In this document: in pieces, positions 6,137 to 22,694 of the stretch
How positions within the stretch are numbered: the stretch's first letter is position 1
Layout of the letters: every line of letters begins with the position of its first letter
Source of the DNA: Palleronia rufa
Lineage (GTDB): Bacteria > Pseudomonadota > Alphaproteobacteria > Rhodobacterales > Rhodobacteraceae
Direction of reading: 5' to 3'
DNA: 64,000 bases
Assembly: GCF_000743715.1 (NCBI RefSeq)
Contig: NZ_JQEY01000001.1
Location: 183,406 to 247,405 of the forward strand
Position numbers and translations under genes: made by a program
The notes under the pieces: generated by a model
The model's database searches: none
What the model saw: the letters and a program-made list of their open reading frames with translations, nothing else
What the model was told of the DNA's origin: nothing

Positions 6137-7240
6137 GTGACACGCCTCTCGGTCTCGCGGCGGCTCCGCCGGACGCCGTTCTCCGAGGGAGTCGAGGCGG
6201 CGGGCGTCACCGCCTACACGGTCTACAACCACATGCTGCTGCCGACGGTCTTCCGCTCTCTCGAGGAGGACTACCGCCACCTCAAGAGTGCGGTGCAGGT
6301 CTGGGACGTGGCCTGCGAGCGGCAGGTGGAACTGCGCGGTCCCGATGCTGGACGGCTCATGCAGATCATCACACCGCGCGACCTGCGCGCGATGATGCCC
6401 GGGCAATGCTGCTACATTCCCGTGGTGGACGAGACCGGCGGGATGCTGAACGACCCCGTCGCCGTCAAGCTGGCAGAGGACCGCTGGTGGATCTCGCTTG
6501 CCGACAGCGACCTGCTCTATTGGATCAAGGCGCTGGCCAACGGCTACCGGCTGGAGGTGCTGGTCGATGAGCCTGACGTCTCTCCGCTTGCCGTGCAGGG
6601 GCCCCATGCGGACGACCTCGTGGCGGCGGTCTTCGGCGACCAGGTGCGCGACATCCGGCGGTTCCGGTTCCGGCAGATCGACTTCCGGGGCCGCAGCCTT
6701 GCCGTGGCACGGACCGGCTATTCCAAACAAGGCGGGTTCGAGATCTATGTAGAGGGCGGCGATCTGGGAATGCCCCTCTGGAGCGCGCTGATGGAGGCCG
6801 GCGCGCCCTGGGACGTCCGCGCTGGCTGCCCCAATACCATAGAGCGGATCGAGGGCGGTCTGCTGTCCTACGGCAACGACATGACCGACGACAACACGCC
6901 CCACGAATGCGGCCTCGGCCGGTTCTGCAACACCGTGACCGCCATCGGCTGCATCGGCCGCGACGCGCTTCTGCGCGTGGAAAAGGAAGGTCCGGTCAAG
7001 CAGATCCGCGCCATCTCCATCGGTGGCGACAGGGTGCCGCCCTGTGACCGGTTCTGGCCGCTCCGCGCGGGCGACGCGGTGGTGGGGCGGGTGTCCTCTG
7101 CCATATGGTCGCCGGATGCGGGCACCACCGTGGCCATCGGCATGGTGCGCATGACCCATTGGGCCGAGGGCACGGAACTGACCGTGGAGACGCACGACGG
7201 CCCGCGCCCGGCCTTGGTCAGGGAGGCGTTCTGGGCCTGA
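6137..7240 (+). CDS. dmdA: Dimethylsulfoniopropionate (DMSP) demethylase-like protein
   Basis: GcvT/aminomethyltransferase-fold protein, read as DmdA: it would transfer a methyl group from DMSP to tetrahydrofolate, giving methylmercaptopropionate. With the GTG at 6137 it is 367 aa, close to marine DmdA proteins. The opening LRRTPFSEGVEAAGV, then LKSAVQVWDVACERQV, TPRDLRAMMPGQCCY and GGMLNDPVAVKLAEDRWW, and later PLAVQGPHADDL, SKQGGFEIYVEG and ERIEGGLLSYGNDMT, look DmdA-like rather than like glycine-cleavage T-protein. Linkage to a methanethiol oxidase 57 bp downstream supports a sulfur role. The family also contains DmdA-like proteins without DMSP activity, so the substrate remains an inference. 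A TTG 93 bp upstream would add a non-conserved basic tail. Confidence 0.78.
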   Translation: MTRLSVSRRLRRTPFSEGVEAAGVTAYTVYNHMLLPTVFRSLEEDYRHLKSAVQVWDVACERQVELRGPDAGRLMQIITPRDLRAMMPGQCCYIPVVDETGGMLNDPVAVKLAEDRWWISLADSDLLYWIKALANGYRLEVLVDEPDVSPLAVQGPHADDLVAAVFGDQVRDIRRFRFRQIDFRGRSLAVARTGYSKQGGFEIYVEGGDLGMPLWSALMEAGAPWDVRAGCPNTIERIEGGLLSYGNDMTDDNTPHECGLGRFCNTVTAIGCIGRDALLRVEKEGPVKQIRAISIGGDRVPPCDRFWPLRAGDAVVGRVSSAIWSPDAGTTVAIGMVRMTHWAEGTELTVETHDGPRPALVREAFWA

Positions 7241-7297
7241 GCGCAACCGTAACAAGCCGCCGCGGCATTGCGGAGGACGACCAGCAGGGAGGACATC

Positions 7298-8698
7298 ATG
7301 AACCTGAGACCGGATCCCACATTCTACCCTTCGGCCAGGCTTGCCATGGAGGGGCCGGTAGAGACGCTTGCCTTCGCGCTGATGCTCAGTCCGGACGGTT
7401 CCCGGCCCGACGGTCTGGCGGTGGTGGACGTGGATCCTGCGTCGGACAGCTACGGGCAGATCGTCCACAGTCTGTTCATGCCCAACACCGGCGACGAGTT
7501 TCACCATTTCGGCTGGAACGCCTGCTCTTCCGCCCTGTCGCCTCTTACCGGGCACGCCTTTCTGGAGCGGCGCTATCTCATCATCCCGGGCATCCGGTCG
7601 AGCCGGATCTACATCATCGACGTCAAGGACCCGCGCAAGGCGAAGATCCACAAGATCATCGAGCCGGAGGAGCTGTTTGCCAGGACCGGCTATTCGCGCC
7701 CCCACACGATCCATTGCGGCCCGGAGGGGATCTATGTCTCGACACTCGGCGGCGGGGGCAAGGACGGAACCGACGGGCCTCCCGGCATCTTCATCATGGA
7801 TTGCGAGACCTTCGAGATCCTCGGCCGCTACGAGATGGACCGCGGCGCCCAGGACAAGCACTACGATTTCTGGTGGAACCTGCCCCGGGATTACATGGTC
7901 AGCTCGGAATGGGGCCTGCCGCCGCAATTCGAGAACGGCGTCGTGCCGGAGGACCTGCTGTCCAACAGATACGGCCATGCGATCCACTTCTGGGACCTGC
8001 GCGCGCGGCGCAACATCCAGACCATCGATCTGGGCGCCAATCACCAGATGGCGCTGGAGATCCGGCCGGCCCACGATCCGGCCAAGCAATACGGGTTTTG
8101 CGGCGTGGTGGTGGACACCGAAACCCTGCAGGGCGCGATCTTCACCTGGTGGCGCAACGATGACGGCACGTTCGAGGCGAAGAAGACCGTCACCATCGAC
8201 CCCGTTCCGGCCGACGCGGACGACCTGCCGGACCTGCTGAAGGGCTTCGGCGCCGTGCCGCCGCTGGTGACGGACATCGACCTGAGCCTCGACGACAGGT
8301 ATCTCTATGTCGCCTGCTGGGGACTGGGAGAGATGCATCAGTACGACGTGTCCGACCCGATGGCGCCCCGGCTCACCGGCAAGGTCGAGATCGGCGGCAT
8401 CGTGGCCAGAACCCCGCATCCCAACGGCAAGGCCTTCGGCTACGGCCCGCAGATGGTCGAGATCAGCCGCGACGGAAAGCGGGTCTACTGGACCAACTCG
8501 CTCTATTCCACCTGGGACGACCAGTTCTATCCCGGTGAGGGCGGCGCGGCCATGGTGATGGCCCGGGTCGGCGACGGCGGCGGCCTGACCCTGGACAGGG
8601 ATTTCTGGGTCGAGTTCCCGGAAGGCTACCGCAGCCACCAGATCCGCCTGGAGGGCGGCGACTGCTCGACCGACAGTTTCTGCTACCCGTCGGCATGA
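7298..8698 (+). CDS. mtoX: Methanethiol oxidase, selenium-binding protein (SBP56) family
   Basis: Member of the SBP56/SELENBP1 family, whose bacterial enzymes oxidise methanethiol to formaldehyde, hydrogen sulfide and hydrogen peroxide with copper. The ATG at 7298 follows AGGGAGGA. The 466-aa protein has FHHFGWNACSS at residues 68-78 (His69, His70, Cys76), SRPHTIHCGPEG, HAIHFWDL and GANHQMALEIRP, which supply the conserved histidines, and ends with the family tail YRSHQIRLEGGDC. The vertebrate CSSC motif is CSSA here. No signal peptide is visible, so a cytoplasmic location is likely unless export is unusual. It sits between the DmdA-like gene and a membrane protein. Confidence 0.85.
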   Translation: MNLRPDPTFYPSARLAMEGPVETLAFALMLSPDGSRPDGLAVVDVDPASDSYGQIVHSLFMPNTGDEFHHFGWNACSSALSPLTGHAFLERRYLIIPGIRSSRIYIIDVKDPRKAKIHKIIEPEELFARTGYSRPHTIHCGPEGIYVSTLGGGGKDGTDGPPGIFIMDCETFEILGRYEMDRGAQDKHYDFWWNLPRDYMVSSEWGLPPQFENGVVPEDLLSNRYGHAIHFWDLRARRNIQTIDLGANHQMALEIRPAHDPAKQYGFCGVVVDTETLQGAIFTWWRNDDGTFEAKKTVTIDPVPADADDLPDLLKGFGAVPPLVTDIDLSLDDRYLYVACWGLGEMHQYDVSDPMAPRLTGKVEIGGIVARTPHPNGKAFGYGPQMVEISRDGKRVYWTNSLYSTWDDQFYPGEGGAAMVMARVGDGGGLTLDRDFWVEFPEGYRSHQIRLEGGDCSTDSFCYPSA

Positions 8699-8708
8699 TC
8701 GGGACGCG

Positions 8709-9365
8709 ATGATGGACACGGCGGCCCTGTGGGGGGCCGTCATCGGTATCGGGGTGTATCACGGACTGAACCCCGGCATGGGCTGGCCGCTTGCGGTGTC
8801 CTCGGCGCTGATGGAACGGCGCCGGAGCGCGCTTTTCCGTGCCCTGGCGGCGCTGGCGGCGGGACATTTCGCGTCGATGGTGCTGGTGCTGGTGCCGTTC
8901 TCAGCCTTGGCCGCGCTGGTCCGGTGGGAGCGCGAGATCCGACTGGGCGCGGCGCTGATCGTGATCGGCATGGGGCTGTTCCTGCTCATCGACCGCCGCC
9001 ACCCGCGGATGCTGTCCCGCGTGCCGCCGTCCCGCCTGGCGCTCTGGTCTTTTCTGGCGGCGCTGGCGCATGGGGCGGGGCTGATGCTGGTGCCTCTCTA
9101 TCTGGGGATCGGCCGGATCGGTGCGGCGGAGGGCGGGCATGGGGCGGCGGCGTCGCTTTTGGCCGGCAATACCGGCGTGGCCCTGCTGGTCGCGGGCCTC
9201 CACACGGCTGCGATGATCCTGGCGGGCGGCGCCATGGCCACCGCGGTCTATCTGTGGCTCGGGCTGCGCGTCCTGTCGAGATCCTGGCTCAACCTCGATC
9301 TTGTCTGGGCGCTGTCGCTGATCGCCGTCGGCGCTCTGGGACTGCTGGGCGCGTGGCATGGCTGA
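8709..9365 (+). CDS. Unrecognised polytopic membrane protein linked to mtoX
   Basis: 218-aa hydrophobic protein with about six probable membrane helices; I cannot name its family. It opens with a glycine-rich first helix containing GVYHGLNPGMGWPL, a His-Asn-Pro motif faintly reminiscent of metal or small-molecule exporters, then basic loops (MERRRS, DRRHPRM) fitting a positive-inside topology. It starts 10 bp after mtoX (ATG 8709, with a second ATG at 8712) and ends 24 bp from the convergent dnaE2, so it closes the dmdA-mtoX unit. Context suggests a role in methanethiol metabolism, such as metal supply or product export, but this is inference only. Confidence 0.6.
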   Translation: MMDTAALWGAVIGIGVYHGLNPGMGWPLAVSSALMERRRSALFRALAALAAGHFASMVLVLVPFSALAALVRWEREIRLGAALIVIGMGLFLLIDRRHPRMLSRVPPSRLALWSFLAALAHGAGLMLVPLYLGIGRIGAAEGGHGAAASLLAGNTGVALLVAGLHTAAMILAGGAMATAVYLWLGLRVLSRSWLNLDLVWALSLIAVGALGLLGAWHG

Positions 9366-9389: not shown

Positions 9390-12300
9390 TCAGTGGAAAT
9401 CCCGCGATTTCGGGATCACGCGCACGTTTCGCGGATGGGCGCGGATGCCCACCTGGCCGGGGATCGGATGGGTCGGATGGTCGCCCCGCGTGGTGGTCCT
9501 GGGCAGGCGGTCCATGGACAGGCGCGACAGCCGATCGCTGCGATCCTCCAGCCGGTCGGCGACCACATGGATCACGCGGCCATCGGTCTGCACCCGTCCG
9601 TGCACGACCAGCAGGCGCGCGGCCATGATCGTCGCGCGACTGGCCTTGAACATGTTCGGCCAGATCACGAGGTTCGCGACGCCCGCCTCATCCTCCAGGG
9701 TGATGAAGCACACCCCCTTGGCGCTGCCGGGCTTCTGGCGGACCAGCACCAGCCCGGCCAGGGACACCCGCGCACCATGCCGCATCCCGGGCAGGTCAGA
9801 GGTCGCGCGGAACCCCTGGGCGGCCAGGCTGGGGCGGAAGAAGGACATGGGATGCGCCTTCAGCGACAGGCGCAGGGTCTGGTAATCGGCCACCACATGC
9901 TCTGCGCGGGCCATGGCGGGCAGGATCGTCTCTGGGTCCGCGCCCTCGTCCCTGGCCGCGGCATGATCGAAGATCGGCAGGCGGGGCGCGTCCCTGATCG
10001 CCTGCGCCTGCCACAGCGCCTGCCGCCGGTCGAGCCCCATGGACCGCATCGCATCCGCCGCCGCCAGGCGCCGGATCGCGCCCGCATCGAGCCGTGCCCG
10101 CGCCTTGAGGTCGGCCAGATCGCCGAAGGGCGCGTCGCGGGCGGCCATGAGACGCGCGCCCGCATCCTGCGCCAGACCGTCGATCTGCCGCAGCCCCAGG
10201 CGCAGGGCAAAGCGGGGCGCCCCCTGCCCGTCCAGCCCGTCGGGTTCCAACGTGCAGTTCCAGTCGGAAAATCCGACATCGGCGGCGCGCACCTCAACCC
10301 CGTGTTCGCGCGCGTCGCGCACGATCTGCGCGGGGGCGTAAAAGCCCATGGGCTGCGAATTCAGCAGCGCGCAGGCGAAGGCCGCCGGATAATGGCACTT
10401 CATCCAGCTTGAGACATAGACCAGCTTGGCGAAACTGGCCGCGTGGCTTTCGGGAAAGCCGTATTCGCCGAAGCCCTTGATCTGGTCGAAACATCTCTGC
10501 GCGAAGACCGGATCGTAGCCGCGTTCGGTCATCTGGCCGACCATCTTCTCCTGCAGGGACTCGATGGTCCCGCGCGAGCGGAAGGTCGCCATGGCGCGGC
10601 GCAGTTCGTTGCTCTGCGCGGGGGTGAACCGCGCCGCGTCGATGGCGATCTTCATGGCCTGCTCCTGAAAGATCGGAACGCCGAGCGTGCGGTGAAGGAT
10701 CCTTTTCATCTCATCCTGGGGATGTTCGGGACCGGGTGTGGGGTATTCGACCTCTTCCAGCCCGGTGCGGCGGCGCAGATAGGGATGCACCATGTCGCCC
10801 TGGATGGGACCGGGGCGCACGATGGCGACCTCGATCACCAGATCGTAGAAGGTGCGCGGCCGCAGCTTGGGCAGCATCGCCATCTGCGCGCGGCTCTCGA
10901 CCTGGAACACGCCCAGGCTGTCGCCACGGCACAGCATGTCGTAGGTGGGCCGGTTGCCGGGGTCGTCCGGCAGGCGATCCTCCACCGGGACGGTGGCAAG
11001 ATCCAGCGCGCGGCCGTGATGGGCCGCGATCAGATCGAAGCACTTGGCGATGCAGGTCAGCATCCCCAGCGCCAGCACGTCCACCTTGAAGATGTTCAGC
11101 GCGTCGATGTCGTCCTTGTCCCATTCGATGAAGCTGCGCTCTGGCATGGCGCCGTTGCCGATGGGCACGACCTCGGTCAGGGGGCGCTCTGTCAGGATGA
11201 AGCCGCCCACGTGCTGGGAAAGGTGGCGCGGCATCCCGGTCATCTGCCGGGCGAGCGTCAGGACCATGCGTAGGTGGGGGTCCGACAGGTCCAGCCCGGC
11301 CTCCCGCGCGCGTTCGTCCCCCATCTGTCCCTCGAAGCTGCCCCAGATCGTGCCGGCAAGCCTGGCAGTCACGTTTTCCGACAGGCCCATCGCCTTGCCG
11401 ACCTCACGGATGGCGGAGCGCGGGCGGTAATGGATGACGGTCGCGCAGAGCCCGGCCCGGTCACGCCCGTACTTGCGATACATGTACTGGATCACGTCCT
11501 CGCGCCGCTCGTGCTCGAAATCCACGTCGATGTCGGGCGGCTCGTCGCGCTCCTCGCTCAGGAACCTCTCGAACAGCAGGTCGTGTTCGTTGGGGTCCAC
11601 CGAGGTGATCCCCAAACAGAAGCACACCGCCGAATTGGCCGCCGACCCCCGCCCCTGGCACAGGATCGGCGGCTGCGCCTCTTCGCGGGCGAAGCGGACG
11701 ATGTCGCGGATGGTCAGAAAGTAGCGGGCGATCTTCTTCTTGGCGATCAGGGCGAATTCCCTGGCGATGGTGGCGCGCACGTGGTCGGGCACGCCGTCCG
11801 GGTAGCGACCCGCCGCACCCTCCCAGGTCAGCCGCTCCAGCTCTTGCATGGGTGTGCGGCCCCGGGGGACGATCTCATGGGGGTATTCGTATCGCAGGTC
11901 CGTCAGGGAAAAGCCGATGGCGTCGGCCACCCGGCGCGTGGCGGCGATGGCGTGCGGCCAGTCGGCGAAGAGGCGGCACATCTCCCCAGGGGATTTCAGA
12001 TGACGCTCGGCGTTGGACTCCAGCAGGAAGCCCGCCCGCGCCACGGTCGTCTTTTCGCGGATACAGGTCATCACGTCCTGCAAAGGGCGGCGGTCCGGCG
12101 CGTGATAGAGCACGTCGTTGGTGGCAAGGATCGACATCCCGTGGCGCCGCGCCATGGCGTCCAGCCGGTTGATCCGCGCGCGGTCGTCGCCGCGATAGCG
12201 AAACGCCGCACCCACATGGCGCATCCCCGGCAGAGCACGCAGAAGGCGCGGCAGCCCGGTCTCGAACCTGTCGAGATCCTCTCCCGGCATCGCGATCAGG

Positions 12301-12743
12301 TGCAGACCCTCGGCATGGTCCGACACCATTCCCAGCGTCAGATGGGTCAGCCCCTTGCCCTGCCATCCGCCGTCCCTGTCGGTCATCTTGCCCCGCGACA
12401 GCAGCGTGGAAAGCCGGGCATAGGCGGCACGGTCGGACGGATAGGCCAGGAGTTCCGCGCCGCAGAGCAGCACCAGCCGCGCCCCGATGAGCGGACGGAC
12501 GCAGGCGGTGGCGGCCTCCGTATGGACGCGCACCACGCCGGCCAGGGTGTTGCGGTCGGCGATGCCGATGGCGTCGTAACCCAGAAGGTTCGCCGTCCCC
12601 GTCAGGTCCGACGCATCCGAGGCGCCGTGGAGAAAGGAAAAACAGCTCATCAGCCCCAGCTCGACATAGGCTGCGCGAGGATGGGGGGCGAAGCCGTTCT
12701 CCGGCGACAGGGTGCGGCGGGCATGTCCTTCCTGCTGGGGCAT
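9390..12743 (-). CDS. dnaE2: Error-prone DNA polymerase DnaE2 (ImuC)
   Basis: C-family polymerase that carries out damage-induced mutagenic translesion synthesis with ImuA and ImuB. The 1117-aa protein has an N-terminal PHP domain (YVELGLMSCFSFLHGAS at about 26-42, with AIGIADRNTLAG following). The polymerase motif PDIDVDFEHER lies near residue 403 and FKVDVLALGMLT further on. The C-terminal half has helix-hairpin-helix and OB-fold regions (FITLEDEAGVANLVIW). Start is ATG 12743, 55 bp after imuB, completing the imuA-imuB-dnaE2 SOS operon. Its stop faces the mtoX-linked membrane gene 24 bp away. Confidence 0.93.
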   Translation of the reverse strand: MPQQEGHARRTLSPENGFAPHPRAAYVELGLMSCFSFLHGASDASDLTGTANLLGYDAIGIADRNTLAGVVRVHTEAATACVRPLIGARLVLLCGAELLAYPSDRAAYARLSTLLSRGKMTDRDGGWQGKGLTHLTLGMVSDHAEGLHLIAMPGEDLDRFETGLPRLLRALPGMRHVGAAFRYRGDDRARINRLDAMARRHGMSILATNDVLYHAPDRRPLQDVMTCIREKTTVARAGFLLESNAERHLKSPGEMCRLFADWPHAIAATRRVADAIGFSLTDLRYEYPHEIVPRGRTPMQELERLTWEGAAGRYPDGVPDHVRATIAREFALIAKKKIARYFLTIRDIVRFAREEAQPPILCQGRGSAANSAVCFCLGITSVDPNEHDLLFERFLSEERDEPPDIDVDFEHERREDVIQYMYRKYGRDRAGLCATVIHYRPRSAIREVGKAMGLSENVTARLAGTIWGSFEGQMGDERAREAGLDLSDPHLRMVLTLARQMTGMPRHLSQHVGGFILTERPLTEVVPIGNGAMPERSFIEWDKDDIDALNIFKVDVLALGMLTCIAKCFDLIAAHHGRALDLATVPVEDRLPDDPGNRPTYDMLCRGDSLGVFQVESRAQMAMLPKLRPRTFYDLVIEVAIVRPGPIQGDMVHPYLRRRTGLEEVEYPTPGPEHPQDEMKRILHRTLGVPIFQEQAMKIAIDAARFTPAQSNELRRAMATFRSRGTIESLQEKMVGQMTERGYDPVFAQRCFDQIKGFGEYGFPESHAASFAKLVYVSSWMKCHYPAAFACALLNSQPMGFYAPAQIVRDAREHGVEVRAADVGFSDWNCTLEPDGLDGQGAPRFALRLGLRQIDGLAQDAGARLMAARDAPFGDLADLKARARLDAGAIRRLAAADAMRSMGLDRRQALWQAQAIRDAPRLPIFDHAAARDEGADPETILPAMARAEHVVADYQTLRLSLKAHPMSFFRPSLAAQGFRATSDLPGMRHGARVSLAGLVLVRQKPGSAKGVCFITLEDEAGVANLVIWPNMFKASRATIMAARLLVVHGRVQTDGRVIHVVADRLEDRSDRLSRLSMDRLPRTTTRGDHPTHPIPGQVGIRAHPRNVRVIPKSRDFH

Positions 12744-12798
12744 CAGCCCGACGCCCCATCCGCATCCGGCCCGCCGGTGGCGCGCCCGCGCCGGGCCA

Positions 12799-14343
12799 TC
12801 ATGCGAACGCCCCGTGCAGGAACCAGCGCGGCGCGCCGCCGCGCCCGTCCTGGGCCAGCCCCTCGCGATAGATCCAGAACCGCCGGCCGTCCCGGACCTC
12901 TACCTTGTAGTAGTCGCGCAGGCGGGTGCCGGGCCTGTCGCGCCACCATTCGGGTGCGATCCGCTCCGGCCCCTCGCGGCGCAGGACGTCGAACTCCACC
13001 CGACGCCAGACGAAGCGCGCGGGCGGACCTTCGGGCACGGCATAGATCACCCGCACCTCCTCGGCCGGATCCAGGAGGCGGACCGGACGCTCGCGGGCGG
13101 GATCGGGGGGATCCGCCGGAACCGCGCCCAGCGCCGGAACCCGCCGCTCCACCCGTTCCGGCACATGGCTTTGCCGCCAGGCGGACCAGCGCACCCTGTC
13201 GGGTCCCAGCCGCGCCGTCAGCCGGTCGAGCAGCGCCGAGACGTCGGCATCCGGGTCGCGCGCGCCGTCCAGACCCGGCTGGCCCGCGTCCAGCGGTTCC
13301 ACCCTGAGAGCCTCCAGCGTCAGCAGGTCGAAGCCGAAGCCGGGGTCGATCCGGTCCAGCCGGCCGTGCAGCAGGCGCAACAGATGGTCCGGATCGCGGC
13401 TGGCGCAGGCGGTGGCGACATCGCTCGACCGGCAGTCCCCGTCGATGCGGTAGACGGTGAGTCGCAGCAGCCGCGCGCCCTCTCCGGCCTCCGACAGGTC
13501 GGTGCACAGGCGTGCGGCCAACTCTGCCAGATGCGGTGCGGCATCCATCACCGGCTCTGCCAGCCGCGTCCGGACGATCCGGCGCGCACGGTCCGCGGGG
13601 GCGTTCAGCGGATCGGGCAGCCGTCCCGTGGCCCGGTCCAGAAGGACCAGCGGATTGCGATCCGCCGCAAGGCCGGCAAAGCGCCGCATCAGCGCCGTGC
13701 GCGGCACCGCCCCCAGCGCGCCGACCGTCCTGAGCCCCAGCCGGTCCAGAAGGCGCACCGTTTCCGCGTCGAGCCGCAGGGCGCCGACCGGCAGCGGGGC
13801 GATCGCCTTTTCCACCTCTCCCGCCGCGCAGATCCCGAAAGCCGCCCCGTGCCGTGCCATGGCCTGCGCCGCGCCGCGGGTCGGCGCCATGGCCAGCCGC
13901 GCCGTCAGCCCCTGCATGGCAAAGCGGTCCGCCATGTCGCGCAAAAGCGCCGCCTCACCGCCGAAGAGATGCGCCGCCCCGGTGGTGTCCAGGACGATCC
14001 CCTCTGCCCCGTCGCGCGCCGTCCAGGGGCACCAGCGCCGCGCCCAGAGGGCCAGACGGTCCAGCATCGCGGCATCGCCGTCGGGGTCGGCAGGCTCGAC
14101 ATGCAGATCGGGATGGATCGCCTGCGCATCGGCCACGCGCGCGCCGATGTGGACGTCGCGCGCCCGTGCCGCGGCGCTTGCCGCATGAACCACCGGCCCG
14201 TGGGTGCCGTCGGTCGCCAGGACCACCGGCACGTCATGTCCGGGTACCGTCCGATCTTTCTGCACGATCGCCCTCCAGCGATCCATCGGCAGATCGGGAA
14301 ACCATGCGGAGACGATCCGCGGGCTCGGACGCGCTTGGGTCAT
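12799..14343 (-). CDS. imuB: ImuB, Y-family polymerase-like mutasome protein
   Basis: DinB/UmuC-fold protein that recruits DnaE2 to the replication clamp; family members are usually catalytically inactive and act as a scaffold. From ATG 14343 (GGAAGG upstream) it is 514 aa and opens with RIVSAWFPDLPMDRW, the typical ImuB N-terminus. A helix-hairpin-helix-like segment (LLDRLGLRTVGALGAVP) follows the palm region. The C-terminal third, rich in Arg and Trp (FWIYREGLAQDGRGG), is the ImuB-C type tail. The start lies 110 bp inside imuA, an unusually long overlap, but moving it downstream would remove the conserved N-terminus. The SOS box upstream of imuA implies LexA control. Confidence 0.9.
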   Translation of the reverse strand: MTQARPSPRIVSAWFPDLPMDRWRAIVQKDRTVPGHDVPVVLATDGTHGPVVHAASAAARARDVHIGARVADAQAIHPDLHVEPADPDGDAAMLDRLALWARRWCPWTARDGAEGIVLDTTGAAHLFGGEAALLRDMADRFAMQGLTARLAMAPTRGAAQAMARHGAAFGICAAGEVEKAIAPLPVGALRLDAETVRLLDRLGLRTVGALGAVPRTALMRRFAGLAADRNPLVLLDRATGRLPDPLNAPADRARRIVRTRLAEPVMDAAPHLAELAARLCTDLSEAGEGARLLRLTVYRIDGDCRSSDVATACASRDPDHLLRLLHGRLDRIDPGFGFDLLTLEALRVEPLDAGQPGLDGARDPDADVSALLDRLTARLGPDRVRWSAWRQSHVPERVERRVPALGAVPADPPDPARERPVRLLDPAEEVRVIYAVPEGPPARFVWRRVEFDVLRREGPERIAPEWWRDRPGTRLRDYYKVEVRDGRRFWIYREGLAQDGRGGAPRWFLHGAFA

Positions 14344-14968
14344 GGTGAACCTTCCATCGCCCCGGCGGGCGGGCACGGGCGCGGAACAGGTCGGCCTCCC
14401 ATACGGGACCGCCCGGTGCGCCGGGATCGTGGGGATGCGCGTCCGACGGCCGGGCCGAGACGCGCCAGCGCGCGCGCGCGGCACTCAGCTCCGCCGGATC
14501 GGCGCTGCGGATCAGCCAGACCGGAACGCCCGATGCCTCTGCGCGCAGGGCAAGGCGCTTGGTCGCGGTAAAGCTGAGAACGGAGGGCGCGCCGTGGATC
14601 TCTCCGACGACGGCGGAGAGGCCGCCGCAGGCCGCGCCCTCCTCCATCGCCCAGAGCACGTCGCGCGGGTGGTTCACCTCGACATGCAGGATGGATCCAA
14701 AGGGGCGCAGTCGCCGCAGACCGGGCGTGTAGAGAAGTCCGTTCTCGCGCCGCGACATCCGGTCGGCGACCCAGAGCACCGGGCGCCGCGCGCCGGACAG
14801 AGAGGCCAGGATCAGCGCGGTGGCAGAGGCATCGGCGGCATGGACCGGCAGCGCCTCTTGCAGGACCTCGCCTCCGGGCAGGCAGGCGGAAGAACCCGAC
14901 CGTCCAGCGGACCCGCGCCGCCGATCCGACAGGCGGATCACCCGATCATATGGAGAATCACGCGTCAT
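14234..14968 (-). CDS. imuA: ImuA, RecA-like mutasome accessory protein
   Basis: First gene of the imuA-imuB-dnaE2 cassette. The 244-aa product resembles the RecA/SulA-related ImuA family: a core with PVLWVADRMSRRENG (around residues 80-95), the strand SILHVEVNHPRDVLWAMEEG, and a variable Arg-rich C-terminus. No intact Walker A is obvious. ATG 14968 is only 11 bp from a perfect LexA box, leaving no room for a normal leader. Translation may be leaderless, or a start slightly downstream may be used. Its 3' end overlaps imuB by 110 bp. Confidence 0.85.
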   Translation of the reverse strand: MTRDSPYDRVIRLSDRRRGSAGRSGSSACLPGGEVLQEALPVHAADASATALILASLSGARRPVLWVADRMSRRENGLLYTPGLRRLRPFGSILHVEVNHPRDVLWAMEEGAACGGLSAVVGEIHGAPSVLSFTATKRLALRAEASGVPVWLIRSADPAELSAARARWRVSARPSDAHPHDPGAPGGPVWEADLFRARARPPGRWKVHHDPSASEPADRLRMVSRSADGSLEGDRAERSDGTRT

Positions 14969-15335: not shown

Positions 15336-16256
15336 ATGCGCCTGTCCAGACGATCAGTCCTTTCGCACGGTGCCGCCGGACTTGGCCTATCGCTGCTGGC
15401 GCGCGCGGCCTGGGCCAACGCGACGCTCGACCTGGGGGGCGGCGCGCGGATCGACACGCTGTCTGACGGGCATCTGGTCCTTCCCGGCGCGTTCATCTTC
15501 GGCCCGATGCCCGCCGACAGGATCGCTCCGATCCTGGCGCGCTACGAGATTTCGCCGGACCGGCTGGAGCCGCCTTGCAACGTCACCCTGCTCCGGTCGC
15601 GGGATCGGGTGATCCTGTTCGACATCGGTGCCGGGCCGAACTTCATGGCCAGCGCGGGCCAGTTGCCGCAGGCCCTGGCGGCGCTGGGGCTGTCGCCCGA
15701 AGACGTCACCGACGTGGTGTTCACCCATGGCCACCCCGATCATCTGTGGGGCGTTCTGGACGATTTCGACGAGCTGTCCATCCCCGATGCCCAGTACCAC
15801 ATGGGCGCAGTCGAACACGGCTTCTGGAGCGATCCCGCCACGCTCGACGCCCTGGAAGAGGGCGCCAAGCCCTTCGCCGTCGGCGCGCGGTCGCGGCTGG
15901 AGCGGATCGCCGGCCGCGTCCGGCTGTTCGACGATGGCGCGACCGTGCTGCCGGGCGTCACGGCGCGCGCGACCCATGGCCATACGCCCGGGCATATGTC
16001 CTTTGTGATCGAGGGCACGGAGGGGGCGGCCATGGTCGTGGGCGATGCGATTGCCAACCATCATGTGGCGTTCGAGGCCCCCGCCCTGCCCTCCGGGTCC
16101 GACCAGGATCGGCAGACGGCCGCAAAGACGCGGACCGACCTGCTGCAGGAACTCTGGGACAGCGACATGCCGATGATCGGATTCCATCTGCCCGCCGGCG
16201 GCATCGGCCGGGTCCGAAAAGCGGGCGAGGCATTCCGCTTCGAGATCCCCCAATGA
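15336..16256 (+). CDS. Tat-exported metallo-beta-lactamase-fold hydrolase
   Basis: 306-aa MBL-fold protein with a twin-arginine signal (SRRSVLSHGAAGLGL, residues 4-18), so it is folded before export to the periplasm. The metal motif THGHPDH gives His131, His133, Asp135 and His136; HGHTPGHMSF supplies the next His, VVGDA the bridging Asp, and GFHLPAGG a late His. The substrate is unknown. It overlaps the next MBL gene by ATGA and is convergent with the Sox cluster, so a role in periplasmic sulfur chemistry is plausible by context only. Confidence 0.8.
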   Translation: MRLSRRSVLSHGAAGLGLSLLARAAWANATLDLGGGARIDTLSDGHLVLPGAFIFGPMPADRIAPILARYEISPDRLEPPCNVTLLRSRDRVILFDIGAGPNFMASAGQLPQALAALGLSPEDVTDVVFTHGHPDHLWGVLDDFDELSIPDAQYHMGAVEHGFWSDPATLDALEEGAKPFAVGARSRLERIAGRVRLFDDGATVLPGVTARATHGHTPGHMSFVIEGTEGAAMVVGDAIANHHVAFEAPALPSGSDQDRQTAAKTRTDLLQELWDSDMPMIGFHLPAGGIGRVRKAGEAFRFEIPQ

Positions 16257-17221
16257 GCCGGCACCGGACCCCGCTGCGGGCAACGCTTGCGGTCCTTGCG
16301 ACGCTGGTCGCGGTGCCGGTCGCGGCGAATGAAGAGATCGCCGACCAATATCCCGGAAATCCGCTTTATGCCGCCCCCTACGAGGTCATTCCGAATATCT
16401 GGTCCGCGATCGGCGCCACCGCACCGCCGACCTATGAGAACAGCGGGCACAACAACAATCTGAGCTTCATCGTCACCGGCGACGGCGTCATCGTGGTGAA
16501 CGCCGGCGCGGCGTGGAGCCTTGCAGAGGCCCTGCACGACGAGATCCGCAAGGTCACCGATCAGCCGGTAAAGCTGGTCGTCAACGAAAACGGACAAGGG
16601 CACGCGATGCTGGGGAACGGCTACTGGGCCGCGCAGGGCGTGCCGATCCTGGCCCATGAGGATGCGGCCGCAGCCTTCGCAGAGGACGGCTTTCGATCGC
16701 TGGACGCCATGAAGGACTACAATCGCGAAAAGGCCGAAAACACCGTCCTGCAAGGTCCGACGGAGACGTTCAGCGACATGCGCTCCATCGAAATGGGCGA
16801 CATGCGGATCGAGGTGCGGTATCTCGGACCCGCCCACAGTCCGGGCGATATCGTCGTCTGGCTGCCCGAGCAGCGCCTGGTGATCTCAGGCGACATGGCG
16901 TTCCACGAACGCCTCCTGCCGATCTTTCCCAACACCAATACCCGCGACTGGCTCGACACCTGGGACACGGGGTTCGAGCCGCTGGGCGCGCTTTACGTCA
17001 TTCCCGGCCACGGCCATCCGACGAACATGGACCAGGTGCGCCGCTATACCAAGGGGTATCTGGAATACCTGCGCGGCAAGATCGGGGATCACCTGGACCA
17101 GGGCGGATCGCTGGCCGATGCCTATTACGTGGACCAGTCGCCCTATGCGAACCTGGACACGTTCGAGGAGCTGGCCACCAAGAATGCCGGTCGCGTCTTC
17201 GAAGAGATGGAATTCGAGTGA
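16253..17221 (+). CDS. SoxH-like MBL-fold protein with degenerate metal motif
   Basis: 322-aa exported protein (signal peptide ending near VPVAAN, residue 26) of the MBL fold, resembling SoxH and related proteins found near sox or quinoprotein genes. The usual H-x-H-x-D-H is replaced by residues 113-118, N-G-Q-G-H-A, so the first metal site is largely lost. Later motifs remain: PAHSPGD, SGDMAFHERLLP and IPGHGHPT. Either the protein binds one metal differently or it is a non-catalytic relative. It is coupled to the preceding MBL gene (ATGA) and ends facing the sox-linked DUF302 gene across a strong hairpin. Confidence 0.75.
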   Translation: MSRHRTPLRATLAVLATLVAVPVAANEEIADQYPGNPLYAAPYEVIPNIWSAIGATAPPTYENSGHNNNLSFIVTGDGVIVVNAGAAWSLAEALHDEIRKVTDQPVKLVVNENGQGHAMLGNGYWAAQGVPILAHEDAAAAFAEDGFRSLDAMKDYNREKAENTVLQGPTETFSDMRSIEMGDMRIEVRYLGPAHSPGDIVVWLPEQRLVISGDMAFHERLLPIFPNTNTRDWLDTWDTGFEPLGALYVIPGHGHPTNMDQVRRYTKGYLEYLRGKIGDHLDQGGSLADAYYVDQSPYANLDTFEELATKNAGRVFEEMEFE

Positions 17222-17242
17222 CGTCCCGCGGTCGCGCAGGCC

Positions 17243-17287
17243 CACCGCGATCCGGGCCCGTCGCCGTGGGGCCGAAGGATCGCGGTG
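17243..17287. terminator. Long hairpin between convergent MBL and sox-linked genes
   Basis: CACCGCGATC (17243-17252) and GATCGCGGTG (17278-17287) form a perfect 10-bp stem enclosing a further GC-rich GGCCC / GGGCC pairing. It sits in the 88-bp gap between convergent stops, so it likely acts as a bidirectional terminator, although no T-tract follows. Confidence 0.6.
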
Positions 17288-17309
17288 CCGCCCTATGCCG
17301 TGACCCGCG

Positions 17310-17741
17310 CTACTGCCCCACCGCTTCGCGCGCGATTTCGTCGAGCAGGGCCTGGACCTTCTGCATCGGTCCGTCGGGATAGGTGCGGTATCCGACCGTC
17401 ACCTCACCGTCGCGTTCGGCGACGAAGACTCCGTAGGGACAGAACGCGATATTCATCGGGTCCGCCTCCATCACCTCCCGCGAGAGGCGCGCGGAACAGA
17501 AGATGAAGATGTCGGCGGCGGTAAACAGCGTCTCGTTGCCGCCCACGTCTTCCTTGGTGCGGTTGAGCATTTCGCCCACGTGGCTGGTGTAGTCGATGAC
17601 CAGACCCTTGTTCACGATGGCGCTCTCCACTCCGAAGGTGGCGTCCTCGAAACTGCCTGCGTAGGAATAGCTCTCATAGTCCTGGGCGACCGCCGCCGTC
17701 GCCGTCGCCAAGCCGATCACTAGTGCAAATGCTTTCATCAT
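17310..17741 (-). CDS. Exported DUF302-family protein at the end of the sox operon
   Basis: 143-aa protein with a signal peptide (MMKAFALVIGLATATAAVAQ). The body fits the DUF302 family: ETLFTAADIFIFCSARLSREVM followed by NIAFCPYGVFV, placing two cysteines in the core. DUF302 proteins often accompany sulfur oxidation or stress genes; their activity is not established. The start is ATG 17741 (with 17738 next), 7 nt after AAAGGAG. It is the last gene of the minus-strand sox run, 63 bp after the DsrE-like gene. Confidence 0.75.
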   Translation of the reverse strand: MMKAFALVIGLATATAAVAQDYESYSYAGSFEDATFGVESAIVNKGLVIDYTSHVGEMLNRTKEDVGGNETLFTAADIFIFCSARLSREVMEADPMNIAFCPYGVFVAERDGEVTVGYRTYPDGPMQKVQALLDEIAREAVGQ

Positions 17742-17804
17742 CGCCGTTTCTCCTTTGCGGGACACCCGCCGCCCCGATGCCGGGGCGCCGATGTCAGTCG
17801 GTCC

Positions 17805-18257
17805 TCAGGGGCGCACGATCGTCCAACCGTCCTCATCCAGCTCAATCAGTTCGACGACGCCGGCCGGCACGCGGTCGGCATTGTCCGCGATCGGGATTTC
17901 CTGACCTTCCTTTTTGGCCATCGCGTCGATCGTGTTTTGGCAAGCCGCGAAGCTGACGTTGGGCATGGATTGATCGAAGGATTTCAGCCGGTCCAGCACC
18001 GGCGAAGTGTCGGATCGCAGCATATGCAGGCCGGCGTTGAATGCGACGATGCGGATTTCGACCTCCTCGGCCTGCTCGGAATACAGACGCGACACGTTCG
18101 CGGCCACATTCAAGACGGTGTTCATCTTCTCCGGATCGTTGTCGCTGATCTGCAGGGCCAGGTAATGGATCCCGTCGTCGGGCGACTCGCTGTTCTGGGC
18201 GACGGCGGCGGCGGTCAACCCGACGACAAGCGCGACGATTGCAAACAGGTGCTTCAT
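17805..18257 (-). CDS. Exported DsrE-family protein
   Basis: 150-aa periplasmic protein: a signal peptide (MKHLFAIVALVVGLTAAAVAQ) followed by a DsrE/F-like domain with HYLALQISDNDPEKMNTVLN near the N-terminus, VEIRIVAFNAGLHML in the middle and FAACQNTIDAM toward the end. The Cys in the last motif is at the position that carries sulfur in many DsrE-like proteins. It lies between soxD and the DUF302 gene, suggesting a periplasmic sulfur-relay or binding accessory to Sox. No direct function can be given. Confidence 0.78.
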   Translation of the reverse strand: MKHLFAIVALVVGLTAAAVAQNSESPDDGIHYLALQISDNDPEKMNTVLNVAANVSRLYSEQAEEVEIRIVAFNAGLHMLRSDTSPVLDRLKSFDQSMPNVSFAACQNTIDAMAKKEGQEIPIADNADRVPAGVVELIELDEDGWTIVRP

Positions 18258-18359
18258 GATGTGGTCCTCCCTTGGGTGTGCCCCGACCCATAAGAGGTGG
18301 GGGAGCGGCGTGGTTCACGCCTGCGTCGTCTTGGTTCCCGTCATCTGCGCTCCCTGTTC

Positions 18360-19598
18360 CTATTGGCCAAAGGACTTCAGATATTCGACCACCGCCTGTC
18401 GGTCGGTTTCCTTGCGAAGTCCCGAAAAGGCCATCTTCGTTCCCTTCATGTAGCTTCTGGGATCGGCAAGGAAGGCCGCAAGGGTTTCTTCGTTCCAGAC
18501 CATGCCTTTTTCGCCGGCCTCCTGGAGCGTTCCGGAATATGCGTACCCCTCCAGTCCGCCGACGGTGCGGCCCACCACGGCGTTCAGTTGCGGTCCGACG
18601 CGGTTCTTGGCGCCGTCGCCCACCTGGTGGCAGGCGGAACACTTCCGAAAGACCTTTTCGCCGGCTGCGACCAGTTCCGGGTCCGGTCCGCTGTCCGCGG
18701 CTTGCGGTTCGGCGGCGGCCGTGTCCGACGGCTCCTGCGTCCCGTCGCCGGCTGCCTCGGTGCCGATGTCCATCGCCGATTCGACCTGGGTGGACGGCTG
18801 TTCGGTCGCGACCTCGGCGGCTGCATCCAGTTCCTCGTCATCGGCGCTGCCTTCGTCCGGCGTGACGTCGAGCACGGCTGCGCGCATCGTGATCTCCACG
18901 CTGGCCTTGCAGTCCGTCATGCAGGCGTCGCCCGAAAATTGCGGAAGTTCCGCTTCGGGGCGATCGTCCATGAAGAACCCGCCGGCGTTCGGCATCTCGA
19001 CCTCGGCGAAGGTCTCGTTGCTCAGGACGAAATCGTCCTCGACAAGGAAATTCAGGTTCAGGATATAGGCCGTTACGGCATATACCTCATCGTCGGTCAG
19101 GGATTGCGCGTTTCCGAACGGCATTGCGCGGTGGACGTAGTCGAAGACCGTCGAAAGGAAGGGCCAGTAGGATCCCACGGTCTTGACCGGATCGCGGCTG
19201 CCGAGACTGCCCTCGCCGCCGGCCAGGACCGGCCAGCGCCCGACCCCCTCGCCGAAGGTTCCGTGGCAGGCCGAACATTGCTGCGAATAGATCTCTTCGC
19301 CAGTGGCGACATCGCCGCTGCCCACGGGAAGTCCCTGCCCGTCCGGCCGGATGTCGATATCCCATGCGGCGATCTCCTCCGGCGTGGCGGGACGCCCCAG
19401 ACCGAAGCCCGCGTCGGGCGCCGAAAGACCGGCAGGACCGTCGCCGGCGGAGCCGGTTCCGGCCAAGGGCGTCGCCTGATCTGTCGCCGGCGCCAAAGGG
19501 TTGGTGGGCGCGACGTCCTGGGCCTGCACGGCGAGCCCGATCCCTGCCGAAAGGCCCGCGGTCAAAGCCTGGATGACGGATTTACGAAATCTCGACAT
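18360..19598 (-). CDS. soxD: SoxD, diheme cytochrome c subunit of sulfane dehydrogenase
   Basis: Electron-accepting subunit of SoxCD, which oxidises the SoxY-bound sulfane sulfur during thiosulfate oxidation in the periplasm. The 412-aa protein has a signal peptide and two c-type heme sites, both CSACH, at 108-112 and 320-324. Between them are an extra Cys pair (GDACMTDC) and an acidic, Ala/Glu-rich low-complexity linker at about 245-306. Probable Met ligands are RAMPFGN and TKMAFSG. Its start overlaps the end of soxC by 17 bp. Confidence 0.92.
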   Translation of the reverse strand: MSRFRKSVIQALTAGLSAGIGLAVQAQDVAPTNPLAPATDQATPLAGTGSAGDGPAGLSAPDAGFGLGRPATPEEIAAWDIDIRPDGQGLPVGSGDVATGEEIYSQQCSACHGTFGEGVGRWPVLAGGEGSLGSRDPVKTVGSYWPFLSTVFDYVHRAMPFGNAQSLTDDEVYAVTAYILNLNFLVEDDFVLSNETFAEVEMPNAGGFFMDDRPEAELPQFSGDACMTDCKASVEITMRAAVLDVTPDEGSADDEELDAAAEVATEQPSTQVESAMDIGTEAAGDGTQEPSDTAAAEPQAADSGPDPELVAAGEKVFRKCSACHQVGDGAKNRVGPQLNAVVGRTVGGLEGYAYSGTLQEAGEKGMVWNEETLAAFLADPRSYMKGTKMAFSGLRKETDRQAVVEYLKSFGQ

Positions 19599-20850
19599 TT
19601 TCCGCGACCCCCTTCTCGTTCACGGCCCAGGTCTGGATGCCGTTGTTGTGATAGATGGACTTTTCGCCCCGGATCGCCCGCAGGGCATCCTTGGTCGGCT
19701 GGACATAGCCGGTACTGTCGTGGGCACGGCTCTGCAGCAGAAGCGGCCGGCCGTCCCAGTCGAAATCGAAATAGAATCGGTGCATCGACTTGTCGAAGCT
19801 GGGTCCCGACATCCGGGCCTGCTGCCAGTTCATCCCACCGTCCAGCGTGACATCGACGCGCGGAATGGTGCCGCGTCCCGACCAGGCGATCCCGGTCAGA
19901 ACGGTGCGCCCCGGACCGTGGGTCAGCGGGGCCTGTGGGCTGGGATTCGTGATGACCGATTTGGCATCCATGGCCCAGGTGAACCGCCGCGCCTCACCGT
20001 CGGGCAGCAGATCCGTGTATTTGCTGGTTTCCTCACGATGCTGCCAGGGTTTGTCGCCGACCTCGATCCGGCGCAGCCATTTGACCCACATGTTGCCTTC
20101 CCAGCCGGGGACGACCAGCCGCAGAGGATAGCCCTGTTCGGGTCGCAGCGCCTCGCCGTTCATCTTGAAGGCCACCAGACAGTCGTCCAGCGCCTTTTCC
20201 ATGGGTACGGATCGGGTCATGGCGGCGGCATCCGCACCTTCCGGCAGGATCCATGTGCCGTTCGTCTTTACGCCCGCCTCCTCAAGAAGCAGCCGGAGGG
20301 GCACGCCGGTATATTGCAGGTTGTGGATCATTCCATGGGTGAACTGACAGCCGTTCAGTTGCGACCCGCGCCACTCCATGCCGGTATTGGCCGCGCATTC
20401 CAGGAAATACACGCGGTTTTCACGGGGAAACCGCAAGATGTCGTCCATCGTGAAGACCAGCGGCGTATCGACCAGACCGTTGATCATCAGCCGATGCTGT
20501 GCCGGGTCTATTTCAGCCACGCCGGAGTGGTGCCGCTCGAAACACAGCCCGTTCGGAGTGATGATCCCGTCCAACTCATGCAGCGGCGTGAAGTTCACGG
20601 AGCTGACCGGATCGGCGGTCAGCCAGGGCACATCCTTGCGAACCACGTCCGCCTCATAGCGCGACGGCAGACCATAGGGGCGCGCATCGACGCCGTCCCC
20701 GAGGGTCTGCATCCAGGGCTGCAATTCGGTGATCGCAGGATCCGGGCCAGCGCGGGCCGCACCGCCAAAGGCAGCCGCGCCGCCGGCGACCGCGGCGCCG
20801 CGCAGAAAGGTGCGCCGCGAAGACGACCGTGGTTTGGGGGTGTCGCTCAT
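19582..20850 (-). CDS. soxC: SoxC, molybdopterin sulfane dehydrogenase subunit
   Basis: Catalytic subunit of SoxCD with the sulfite-oxidase fold. From ATG 20850 it is 422 aa and carries a twin-arginine leader (SSRRTFLRGAAVAGG, residues 10-24), as expected for a periplasmic molybdoenzyme. The Mo-coordinating cysteine is Cys152 in YFLECAANTGMEW, followed by family segments such as GYPLRLVVPGWEGNMWVKWLRRI. An upstream TTG at 20877 is in frame but would precede the Tat signal with no benefit. SoxD follows with a 17-bp overlap. Confidence 0.93.
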   Translation of the reverse strand: MSDTPKPRSSSRRTFLRGAAVAGGAAAFGGAARAGPDPAITELQPWMQTLGDGVDARPYGLPSRYEADVVRKDVPWLTADPVSSVNFTPLHELDGIITPNGLCFERHHSGVAEIDPAQHRLMINGLVDTPLVFTMDDILRFPRENRVYFLECAANTGMEWRGSQLNGCQFTHGMIHNLQYTGVPLRLLLEEAGVKTNGTWILPEGADAAAMTRSVPMEKALDDCLVAFKMNGEALRPEQGYPLRLVVPGWEGNMWVKWLRRIEVGDKPWQHREETSKYTDLLPDGEARRFTWAMDAKSVITNPSPQAPLTHGPGRTVLTGIAWSGRGTIPRVDVTLDGGMNWQQARMSGPSFDKSMHRFYFDFDWDGRPLLLQSRAHDSTGYVQPTKDALRAIRGEKSIYHNNGIQTWAVNEKGVAENVEIS

Positions 20851-20922
20851 GGATCGTCCTCCTGCACGCTTACACATTCATATAGTAGAATACGTTTCCA
20901 CATACGCCATGCAAGGTCATTT

Positions 20923-22617
20923 TCAGTTTTCGATCAGTCGCACCGCCGTATTCGGTGCGACCGAGACTGTGCCCAGCCGCGCGATATGTGCCTCGACCAC
21001 GTCCCAGATGGGCGGGCCTTCGGTGCCTTCGTTGACGCTGGCCCAGCCGGCCACGACATAGGTCCGAGCCGGATCGACGGGCTCGCCCGTGGAAAGTACG
21101 GTCATGTCGTGCAGCCGGCTTCCCTGCGGCTGGGTGATGTCGATGCGGTAGCCCATACCGCCGACCCGAACCATGTCACCCCCCTGCTGGTAGTAGGGAT
21201 CGGGGTTGAACAGATTGTCGCCCACGTCTTCGAGGATGATCTTGAGCGTCTCGCCCGTCATCTCGGTCCGGTAGGCTTCGGGGTAGCTCATCGCCGTCGC
21301 GTTGAAGACGTCCTCACGCGTGATGTCCTGCCCCGGCAAGAGCGACGCGCCCCAGCGGAAACCGGGGCTGAGCGCGATTTCCGCGTCCCGCTCTTCGAGC
21401 AGCGCTGCGCAGATCAGGTCGTCCCAGGTGCCGTTCAGATTGCCCCTGCGGAACAGCACGCTGTCCGTCTGGCCGATCACCTCCGACAGTTCTGCCTGGT
21501 AGGGCGCGCGCAGGCCATCCACCAACGCGGACATCTCCGGGTCCGGCGCGATCACGTCGGAGAACACCGGAATGAGCCGGTGGTCGAGCGCCTTCAACTC
21601 ACCGTCGCGGATGTCGATGTCGAGGCGGCTGACGAACTTGCCGTGACTGCCGCTGGCAATGAGATAGGTCTTGCCGACCAGAACCGGTTCGGGCAGCGCG
21701 TCATGGGTATGGCCGGTCAGTATGATGTCGATGCCAGGCACGTCCTGCGCCAGCTTCCGATCCACATCGAACCCGTTGTGCGACAGCAGCACCACCAGAT
21801 CCGCGCCCGCGTCCCGGACTTCGGCGACGACTTCCGCCATACGGTCCTGACGGACGCCGAAGCTGAGATCCGGGAACATGTAGCCGGGATTGGCGATCGG
21901 CAGATAGGGAAAGGCCTGGCCGATCACGGCGATCCGGGCGCCGCCCCTTTCGAACATCCGGTAGGCGTCGAACGCGGGCTCGTCCCAGGTGGCGTCGAAG
22001 ATATTGGCCCCGAGGAAGGGATAGCCCAGCTCGTTCTCGACGATCTCGCGGACGCGGTCGATCCCGAGGGTGAATTCCCAATGCGACGTCATCGCATCGG
22101 TGCCCAGCGCCTTGAAGGTCTCGACCATGTCGCGGCCCTCTGTCCGGAGCGCCGTCAGACTTCCCTGCCAGGTGTCGCCGCCATCGAGCAGCAGCGCCTC
22201 GGGTCGGTCCGCGCGGATCGCCTTGACGACGGTGGCGATCCGGTCCGCCCCGCCCATCTTGCCGTAGGCGCGGGCCAGAGCGACGAAATCATCATGGGTC
22301 AGCGCGTAGTCCATCGCCGATCCGGTCTCGATCCCGAAAAGCTTGCGGTAGGCGGCTCCGGTCACATGCGGCGGCTTGCCGACCACGTCCCCCACGCCGA
22401 CGTTGTATTCGGGCTCACGGAAATAGATCGGCTTCAACTGGGCATGGATGTCGGTGATGTGGATCAGCGTGACGTTGCCGGATGTCGGAAAGTCCAGGAG
22501 ATCCTGTTGCGACAATCTTTGCTGTGCGGCCAGTCGCGACCAGTTTCCGACACCCCCGGTGCCCCAGAGCGCAGACACAGCAAGACCGGCCTGGAGAAAA
22601 TGGCGTCGGGCAATCAT
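20923..22617 (-). CDS. soxB: SoxB, dimanganese sulfate thiohydrolase
   Basis: Periplasmic enzyme that releases sulfate hydrolytically from SoxY-cysteine S-sulfonate. The 564-aa product starts at ATG 22617 and has a short Tat-type leader (MIARRHFLQAGLAVSALWG). 5'-nucleotidase-like metal motifs are present in order: IHITDIHAQ, LLLDGGDTWQGS, TSHWEFTLG, LLSHNGFDVD and ILTGHTHDALPE. Length is normal for SoxB. It lies between soxA and soxC. A TTG two codons upstream is a possible but weaker start. Confidence 0.95.
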   Translation of the reverse strand: MIARRHFLQAGLAVSALWGTGGVGNWSRLAAQQRLSQQDLLDFPTSGNVTLIHITDIHAQLKPIYFREPEYNVGVGDVVGKPPHVTGAAYRKLFGIETGSAMDYALTHDDFVALARAYGKMGGADRIATVVKAIRADRPEALLLDGGDTWQGSLTALRTEGRDMVETFKALGTDAMTSHWEFTLGIDRVREIVENELGYPFLGANIFDATWDEPAFDAYRMFERGGARIAVIGQAFPYLPIANPGYMFPDLSFGVRQDRMAEVVAEVRDAGADLVVLLSHNGFDVDRKLAQDVPGIDIILTGHTHDALPEPVLVGKTYLIASGSHGKFVSRLDIDIRDGELKALDHRLIPVFSDVIAPDPEMSALVDGLRAPYQAELSEVIGQTDSVLFRRGNLNGTWDDLICAALLEERDAEIALSPGFRWGASLLPGQDITREDVFNATAMSYPEAYRTEMTGETLKIILEDVGDNLFNPDPYYQQGGDMVRVGGMGYRIDITQPQGSRLHDMTVLSTGEPVDPARTYVVAGWASVNEGTEGPPIWDVVEAHIARLGTVSVAPNTAVRLIEN

Positions 22618-22694
22618 GTGCAACCTCTGGTCAAGGGGAGAGTGTCCCTCCGCGGCGGGCGGAAGGAAGATGGTTCACGGGCCGGGTGCGGCGG

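Follow-up and report, generated by a model that had tools for sequence, protein, structure and literature searches.

DMSP is an algal sulfur compound, and methanethiol is a toxic gas formed later in the pathway of its demethylation; the methanethiol derived from DMSP constitutes a large branch of marine sulfur cycling that is poorly explained. The dmdA–acuI operon of Roseobacters (PMC3338564) resembles the locus described here in that dmdA comes first among the demethylation genes of a DMSP operon, but it has acuI directly 3' of dmdA, where our locus instead has an SBP56-family gene and a membrane protein gene. The MtoX–SCO1/SenC–MauG operon (Hyphomicrobium, R. pomeroyi SPOA0269) shares with our locus the SBP56 family, methanethiol oxidation and a copper or maturation partner; nonetheless MtoX is predicted to be periplasmic (PMC5739008) and belongs to another clade, and our locus has neither SCO1 nor MauG. 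RlMTO of Ruegeria lacuscaerulensis, a cluster 1 MTO, is closer in type: the purified enzyme was reported to degrade methanethiol to sulfane sulfur, RdMTO also degrades methanethiol, and mutation of Cys76, Cys140 and Cys456 of RlMTO marked these residues as needed (PMC10936201). The main text of that paper mentions neither dmdA nor a membrane partner. The nearest solved relative, 2ece from a thermophilic archaeon, is of SBP56 type and was deposited as a hypothetical selenium-binding protein with no activity given. Finally, plasmid pMaD9 of Marinovum algicola DG898 (CP010864) has dmdA, SBP56 and membrane protein genes on one strand, as in our locus, from which it differs by additional GntR, DUF2182/PF09948, DUF1326, DmdB-like ligase and acuI genes; the cluster is annotated, and we found no account in which it figures as an operon for methanethiol oxidation. 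Among open papers we found none describing linkage of dmdA to SBP56, or the membrane partner. What is new is this linkage and the near-obligate membrane partner, the two enzyme activities being already known.

A dmdA–SBP56–membrane protein locus in Palleronia rufa

The window (the whole 64,000-nucleotide stretch of DNA from the marine bacterium Palleronia rufa that we analysed) carries three genes in series on its + strand, separated by 57 and 10 bp:

6137..7240, + strand: dmdA, DMSP-dependent demethylase (GcvT family), GTG start, 367 aa
7286..7292, + strand: Shine-Dalgarno-like AGGGAGG ahead of SBP56, read from the sequence, 5 bp 5' of the ATG
7298..8698, + strand: SBP56-family methanethiol oxidase (putative), RlMTO / 2ece type, ATG start, 466 aa
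8709..9365, + strand: uncharacterised membrane protein, 218 aa, ~6-7 membrane helices

The ORF coordinates confirm the positions, strand and gaps given by the first-pass annotation. A simple scan for terminators and sigma-70 promoters found none between the three genes, which is compatible with a single transcript while falling short of proof, and from this layout we infer that dmdA, SBP56 and the membrane gene may be co-transcribed. Directly past the unit is a minus-strand DnaE2-ImuB-like mutagenesis cassette (window 9390-14571), and at 15336-22623 an AidB-like metallo-beta-lactamase gene (+) is followed by a minus-strand Sox cluster (c-type cytochrome, SoxC, SoxB). The unit had been placed within 7 kb of this cluster; Sox genes are indeed present, but those within ~7 kb are accessory ones only, SoxB and SoxC (19.6-22.6 kb, minus strand) being ~10 kb away. 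No tie between the Sox cluster and the three-gene unit was found, and we treat Sox as a neighbour in the window.

We favour, with a probability of about 0.7, the reading that the three genes form a small, reduced DMSP demethylation/methanethiol-oxidation unit. DmdA would demethylate DMSP, with tetrahydrofolate as the methyl acceptor, yielding methylmercaptopropionate, which would be taken on to methanethiol by enzymes encoded elsewhere; candidates are DmdC-like genes on two other contigs (C14 and C2, matching at 44 and 40% the candidate beside dmdA in G009). SBP56, as a cytosolic enzyme of RlMTO type, would then use oxygen to split methanethiol, releasing formaldehyde and sulfur in reduced form, either as sulfane sulfur or as sulfide plus peroxide. 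The route had earlier been drawn as running to sulfide, a point in dispute, RlMTO being reported to give sulfane sulfur (PMC10936201). The membrane protein would be a dedicated partner of the oxidase, at best guess a transporter for the copper that the enzyme is thought to need, and the window form would be a pared-down relative of the longer cluster that at least three other genera carry. Such a unit suggests joint operation of DMSP use and methanethiol removal.

A putative SBP56 oxidase and its membrane partner

The 7298 product is a full-length SBP56 (PF05694, 574 bits), with 2ece as its nearest PDB relative (full length, 552 bits). It had first been called a methanethiol oxidase MtoX; the SBP56 family and the clade with published activity both hold, but the MtoX type is ruled out by score and by gene context, since the protein reaches 109 bits (105.9 in the genome search) against the MtoX equivalog NF052453, whose cut-off is 650, and no SCO1/SenC or MauG gene adjoins it, its neighbours being dmdA and the uncharacterised membrane protein. 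A profile search of the genome likewise found no MtoX above the NF052453 cut-off. Tested for the cluster 1 MTO motifs, the window protein has the three cysteines of GWNACS, HT(V/I)HC and GGDC(S/T) at 76, 140 and 456 (within GWNAC, HTIHC and GGDC), matching RlMTO in motifs and residue numbering, the two features compared. The copper ligands proposed for human SELENBP1 (PMC10362175) are also matched by motif, at H69, H70, H136, H139, D190 and E254, and no signal peptide is obvious in the protein. We class it as a cytosolic-type member of the methanethiol-oxidase clade with published activity, and is predicted to share that activity. An in-frame TGA in the ~42% SBP56 paralogues was considered as a possible selenocysteine codon; in the one checked (L155) it was a stop codon only.

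This SBP56 type occurred in 68 of the 298 family genomes surveyed, and in 67 of these the membrane gene lay directly 3' of it (Fisher p ~1e-64); the same order holds at almost every named locus long enough to show it. The pair is also found in other orders, at 35-57% identity, including soil and plant bacteria. The conserved unit is therefore SBP56 plus the membrane protein, not all three genes, and we regard the membrane protein as a near-obligate, dedicated partner of this SBP56 type. One distant membrane-protein homologue, at L186 (G614), has no adjoining SBP56; its neighbours there resemble a DUF899-type protein and a glutathione transferase.

The first-pass annotation had described the third product as an unrecognised six-helix membrane protein. 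Unrecognised it is, in that we found no Pfam, NCBIfam or PDB relative; the helix count is better given as ~6-7, from an AlphaFold model (94 sequences, pLDDT 82) that is polytopic and helical. A fold search with this model, the better of those made, returned no confident structural relative, and among the matches listed there were partial ones to MFS-type transporters, at TM-scores of 0.42 or below. A weak match of a poor model to the CcdA fold was discarded, as it did not recur in the hit list of the better model. H18, H53, H121, H165, M126 and M169 are among the invariant residues. These His and Met residues, reports that SBP56 oxidases need copper, and the pairing of MtoX with SCO1/MauG (PMC5739008) are the grounds of our guess, made by analogy, that the membrane protein would be a transporter supplying or balancing copper for SBP56.

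A broader function for the pair has to be weighed here: SBP56 might be a general thiol-detoxifying or redox protein, with the membrane protein moving sulfane sulfur, sulfite or thiol in place of copper, and linkage to dmdA being one use among several. The pair in Rhizobium and Azospirillum does occur without DMSP genes nearby, the Azospirillum pair adjoins a cysteine dioxygenase gene, and SELENBP1 has a broad range, accepting several thiols (PMC10362175). On the other hand, the recurrent neighbours of SBP56 in marine Rhodobacteraceae are DMSP-demethylation genes, and the invariant His and Met residues seem to us better suited to a metal than to an anion; we judge this alternative unlikely, while taking it seriously.

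Recurrent linkage to dmdA in other genera

Linkage of dmdA to SBP56 is rare. Among the 54 surveyed genomes having both, dmdA lay within 10 kb of SBP56 in three (G000, G043 and G241) and apart from it in 51, and the survey returned the exact order dmdA–SBP56–membrane protein, adjacent and without acuI, from the window genome alone. The two genes nonetheless tend to occur together, SBP56 and DmdA (at least 65% identity) co-occurring in 48 genomes against 22.6 expected, with genomes counted without phylogenetic correction. The first-pass annotation had linked DMSP demethylation to methanethiol oxidation; this link stands in one respect, recurring in other genera, and falls in another, in that the three-gene unit is not conserved.

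The recurrences take several forms. In Primorskyibacter sedentarius (L066), Pacificoceanicola onchidii (L067) and Marinovum algicola (L107; the pMaD9 cluster) the order is dmdA–acuI–SBP56–membrane protein, within a fuller block of GntR, PF09948, DUF1326, dmdA, acuI, SBP56 and membrane protein, to which the Marinovum version adds a DmdB-like ligase ahead of dmdA. The SBP56–membrane protein pairs of these three loci and of the window form one clade (SH-aLRT 99). At L059 and L060, GntR–SBP56–membrane protein is divergent from PF09948–DUF1326–dmdA–acuI, and the G043 and G241 pairs come after GntR, at the opposite side of the dmdA cluster. A DmdA-like gene and DmdD precede the pair at L084, as do DmdA-like, crotonase and DmdB-like genes in Thalassococcus (L142). 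Linkage to DMSP-demethylation genes appears to have arisen separately in these last cases (L059/L060, L084 and L142). As a control, 51 gene families drawn from dmdA and other loci were sought at 105 SBP56 loci, and only dmdA, acuI, GntR, DUF1326 and PF09948 were present at two or more. Together with the recurrent linkages, this control shows that dmdA beside SBP56, rare as it is, is a specific and recurrent association.

Within these clusters, GntR divergent from a PF09948 and DUF1326 pair, upstream of dmdA, is found at most family loci (L043-L062, L066, L067, L107). We take PF09948 to be PpoB2/DUF2182, a copper chaperone. The annotation of pMaD9 assigns the PF09948 and DUF1326 pair a part in DMSP breakdown. 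In Primorskyibacter the next gene after the SBP56–membrane protein pair is catalase HPII-like (L066:10777-12846), which would fit release of peroxide by the oxidase, a product disputed by PMC10936201.

These data also bear on the case in which SBP56 and the membrane protein alone are the functional unit and dmdA lies upstream by chance in the window genome. Such a coincidence is in keeping with the separation of dmdA and SBP56 in most genomes, with the confinement of the 57-bp gap and missing acuI to the window, and with the same-genus genomes that have dmdA without SBP56. Chance would not readily place the pair downstream of dmdA–acuI in three other genera, in one clade with the window pair, nor produce the further separate linkages to dmdA or DmdA-like genes, and the control families show no such recurrence at SBP56 loci; we find this explanation improbable.

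We put forward a wider proposal tentatively, and with the odds somewhat against it: that the membrane protein founds a new copper (or sulfur) transporter family for cytosolic SBP56 oxidases, a cytosolic counterpart of SCO1/MauG for MtoX, and that, in DMSP-demethylating Rhodobacteraceae lacking MtoX, the pair serves as the chief sink for methanethiol. MtoX exceeded its cut-off in only 5 of the 298 family genomes, against the 68 with this SBP56 type, nearly all with the membrane partner, and this is why the pair matters for the fate of methanethiol in the family. How R. lacuscaerulensis, which lacks MtoX, oxidises methanethiol was left open (PMC7157515), and the sink proposal, if true, would account for it. 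The dmdA linkage in several genera singles out an enzyme and its partner as candidates for testing, and the cultured M. algicola DG898, with pMaD9, offers a host.

Origin of the window arrangement

The longer, acuI-containing clusters of other genera imply that the window arrangement is a reduced version and not the archetype. Its dmdA has no adjoining acuI, regulator or copper-chaperone-like genes; acuI of the same genome is on contig C3 (L174:7314-10393), by a photolyase-like gene and a BCCT-like transporter gene, the latter a possible DMSP importer. Simple vertical inheritance of all three genes was considered and is supported neither by the DmdA tree nor by the genus survey. The window DmdA is nearest to that of G300 in its own genus, a weak grouping (89/83), and G300 has no SBP56, so that co-inheritance of the three genes lacks support; within the genus, dmdA is present in 8 of 14 genomes and SBP56 in only two. 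A separate genus survey, around G024, returned a single genome. Two origins are compatible with these data: retention of part of a larger cluster, or the joining of an SBP56–membrane protein pair to a resident dmdA.

Identity of the DmdA

The 6137 product had been named DmdA-like, with grouping among other GcvT relatives as the point to check, and both score and tree uphold the name. Against NF009133 (NCBIfam DmdA) it reaches 647.9 bits (cut-off 410), far over any GcvT model, and in the PDB it matches Pelagibacter DmdA 3tfh best (339 bits). In a tree that took in 3tfh and DmdA-like outgroups, it sided with this proven DmdA, apart from the DmdA-like relatives (97/99). By the NCBI curated cut-off it is thus a predicted DmdA, the only one in its genome, where three further GcvT-family matches were weak. 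A Trp described as DMSP-specific (W171 of the alignment in PMC7487153) is replaced by Tyr in the window DmdA, the position being mapped via spacing to E178 and Y180. Almost every Rhodobacteraceae DmdA in our set has the same Tyr, including the copies in dmdA–acuI clusters, so that the Tyr taken by itself hardly speaks against DmdA function. That the window DmdA demethylates some methylated substrate other than DMSP, as this substitution might indicate, is highly improbable given how common the Tyr is and how far the NF009133 score exceeds its cut-off.

DmdA-like proteins of ~40% identity, with WSSELGYE replacing YSKQGGFE, were seen at L142:4479-9995, L023:4281-9797 and L092:12074-13141. At the first two loci the gene accompanies crotonase-like, acyl-CoA ligase and SBP56 genes, and its product is perhaps a demethylase for another methylated compound.
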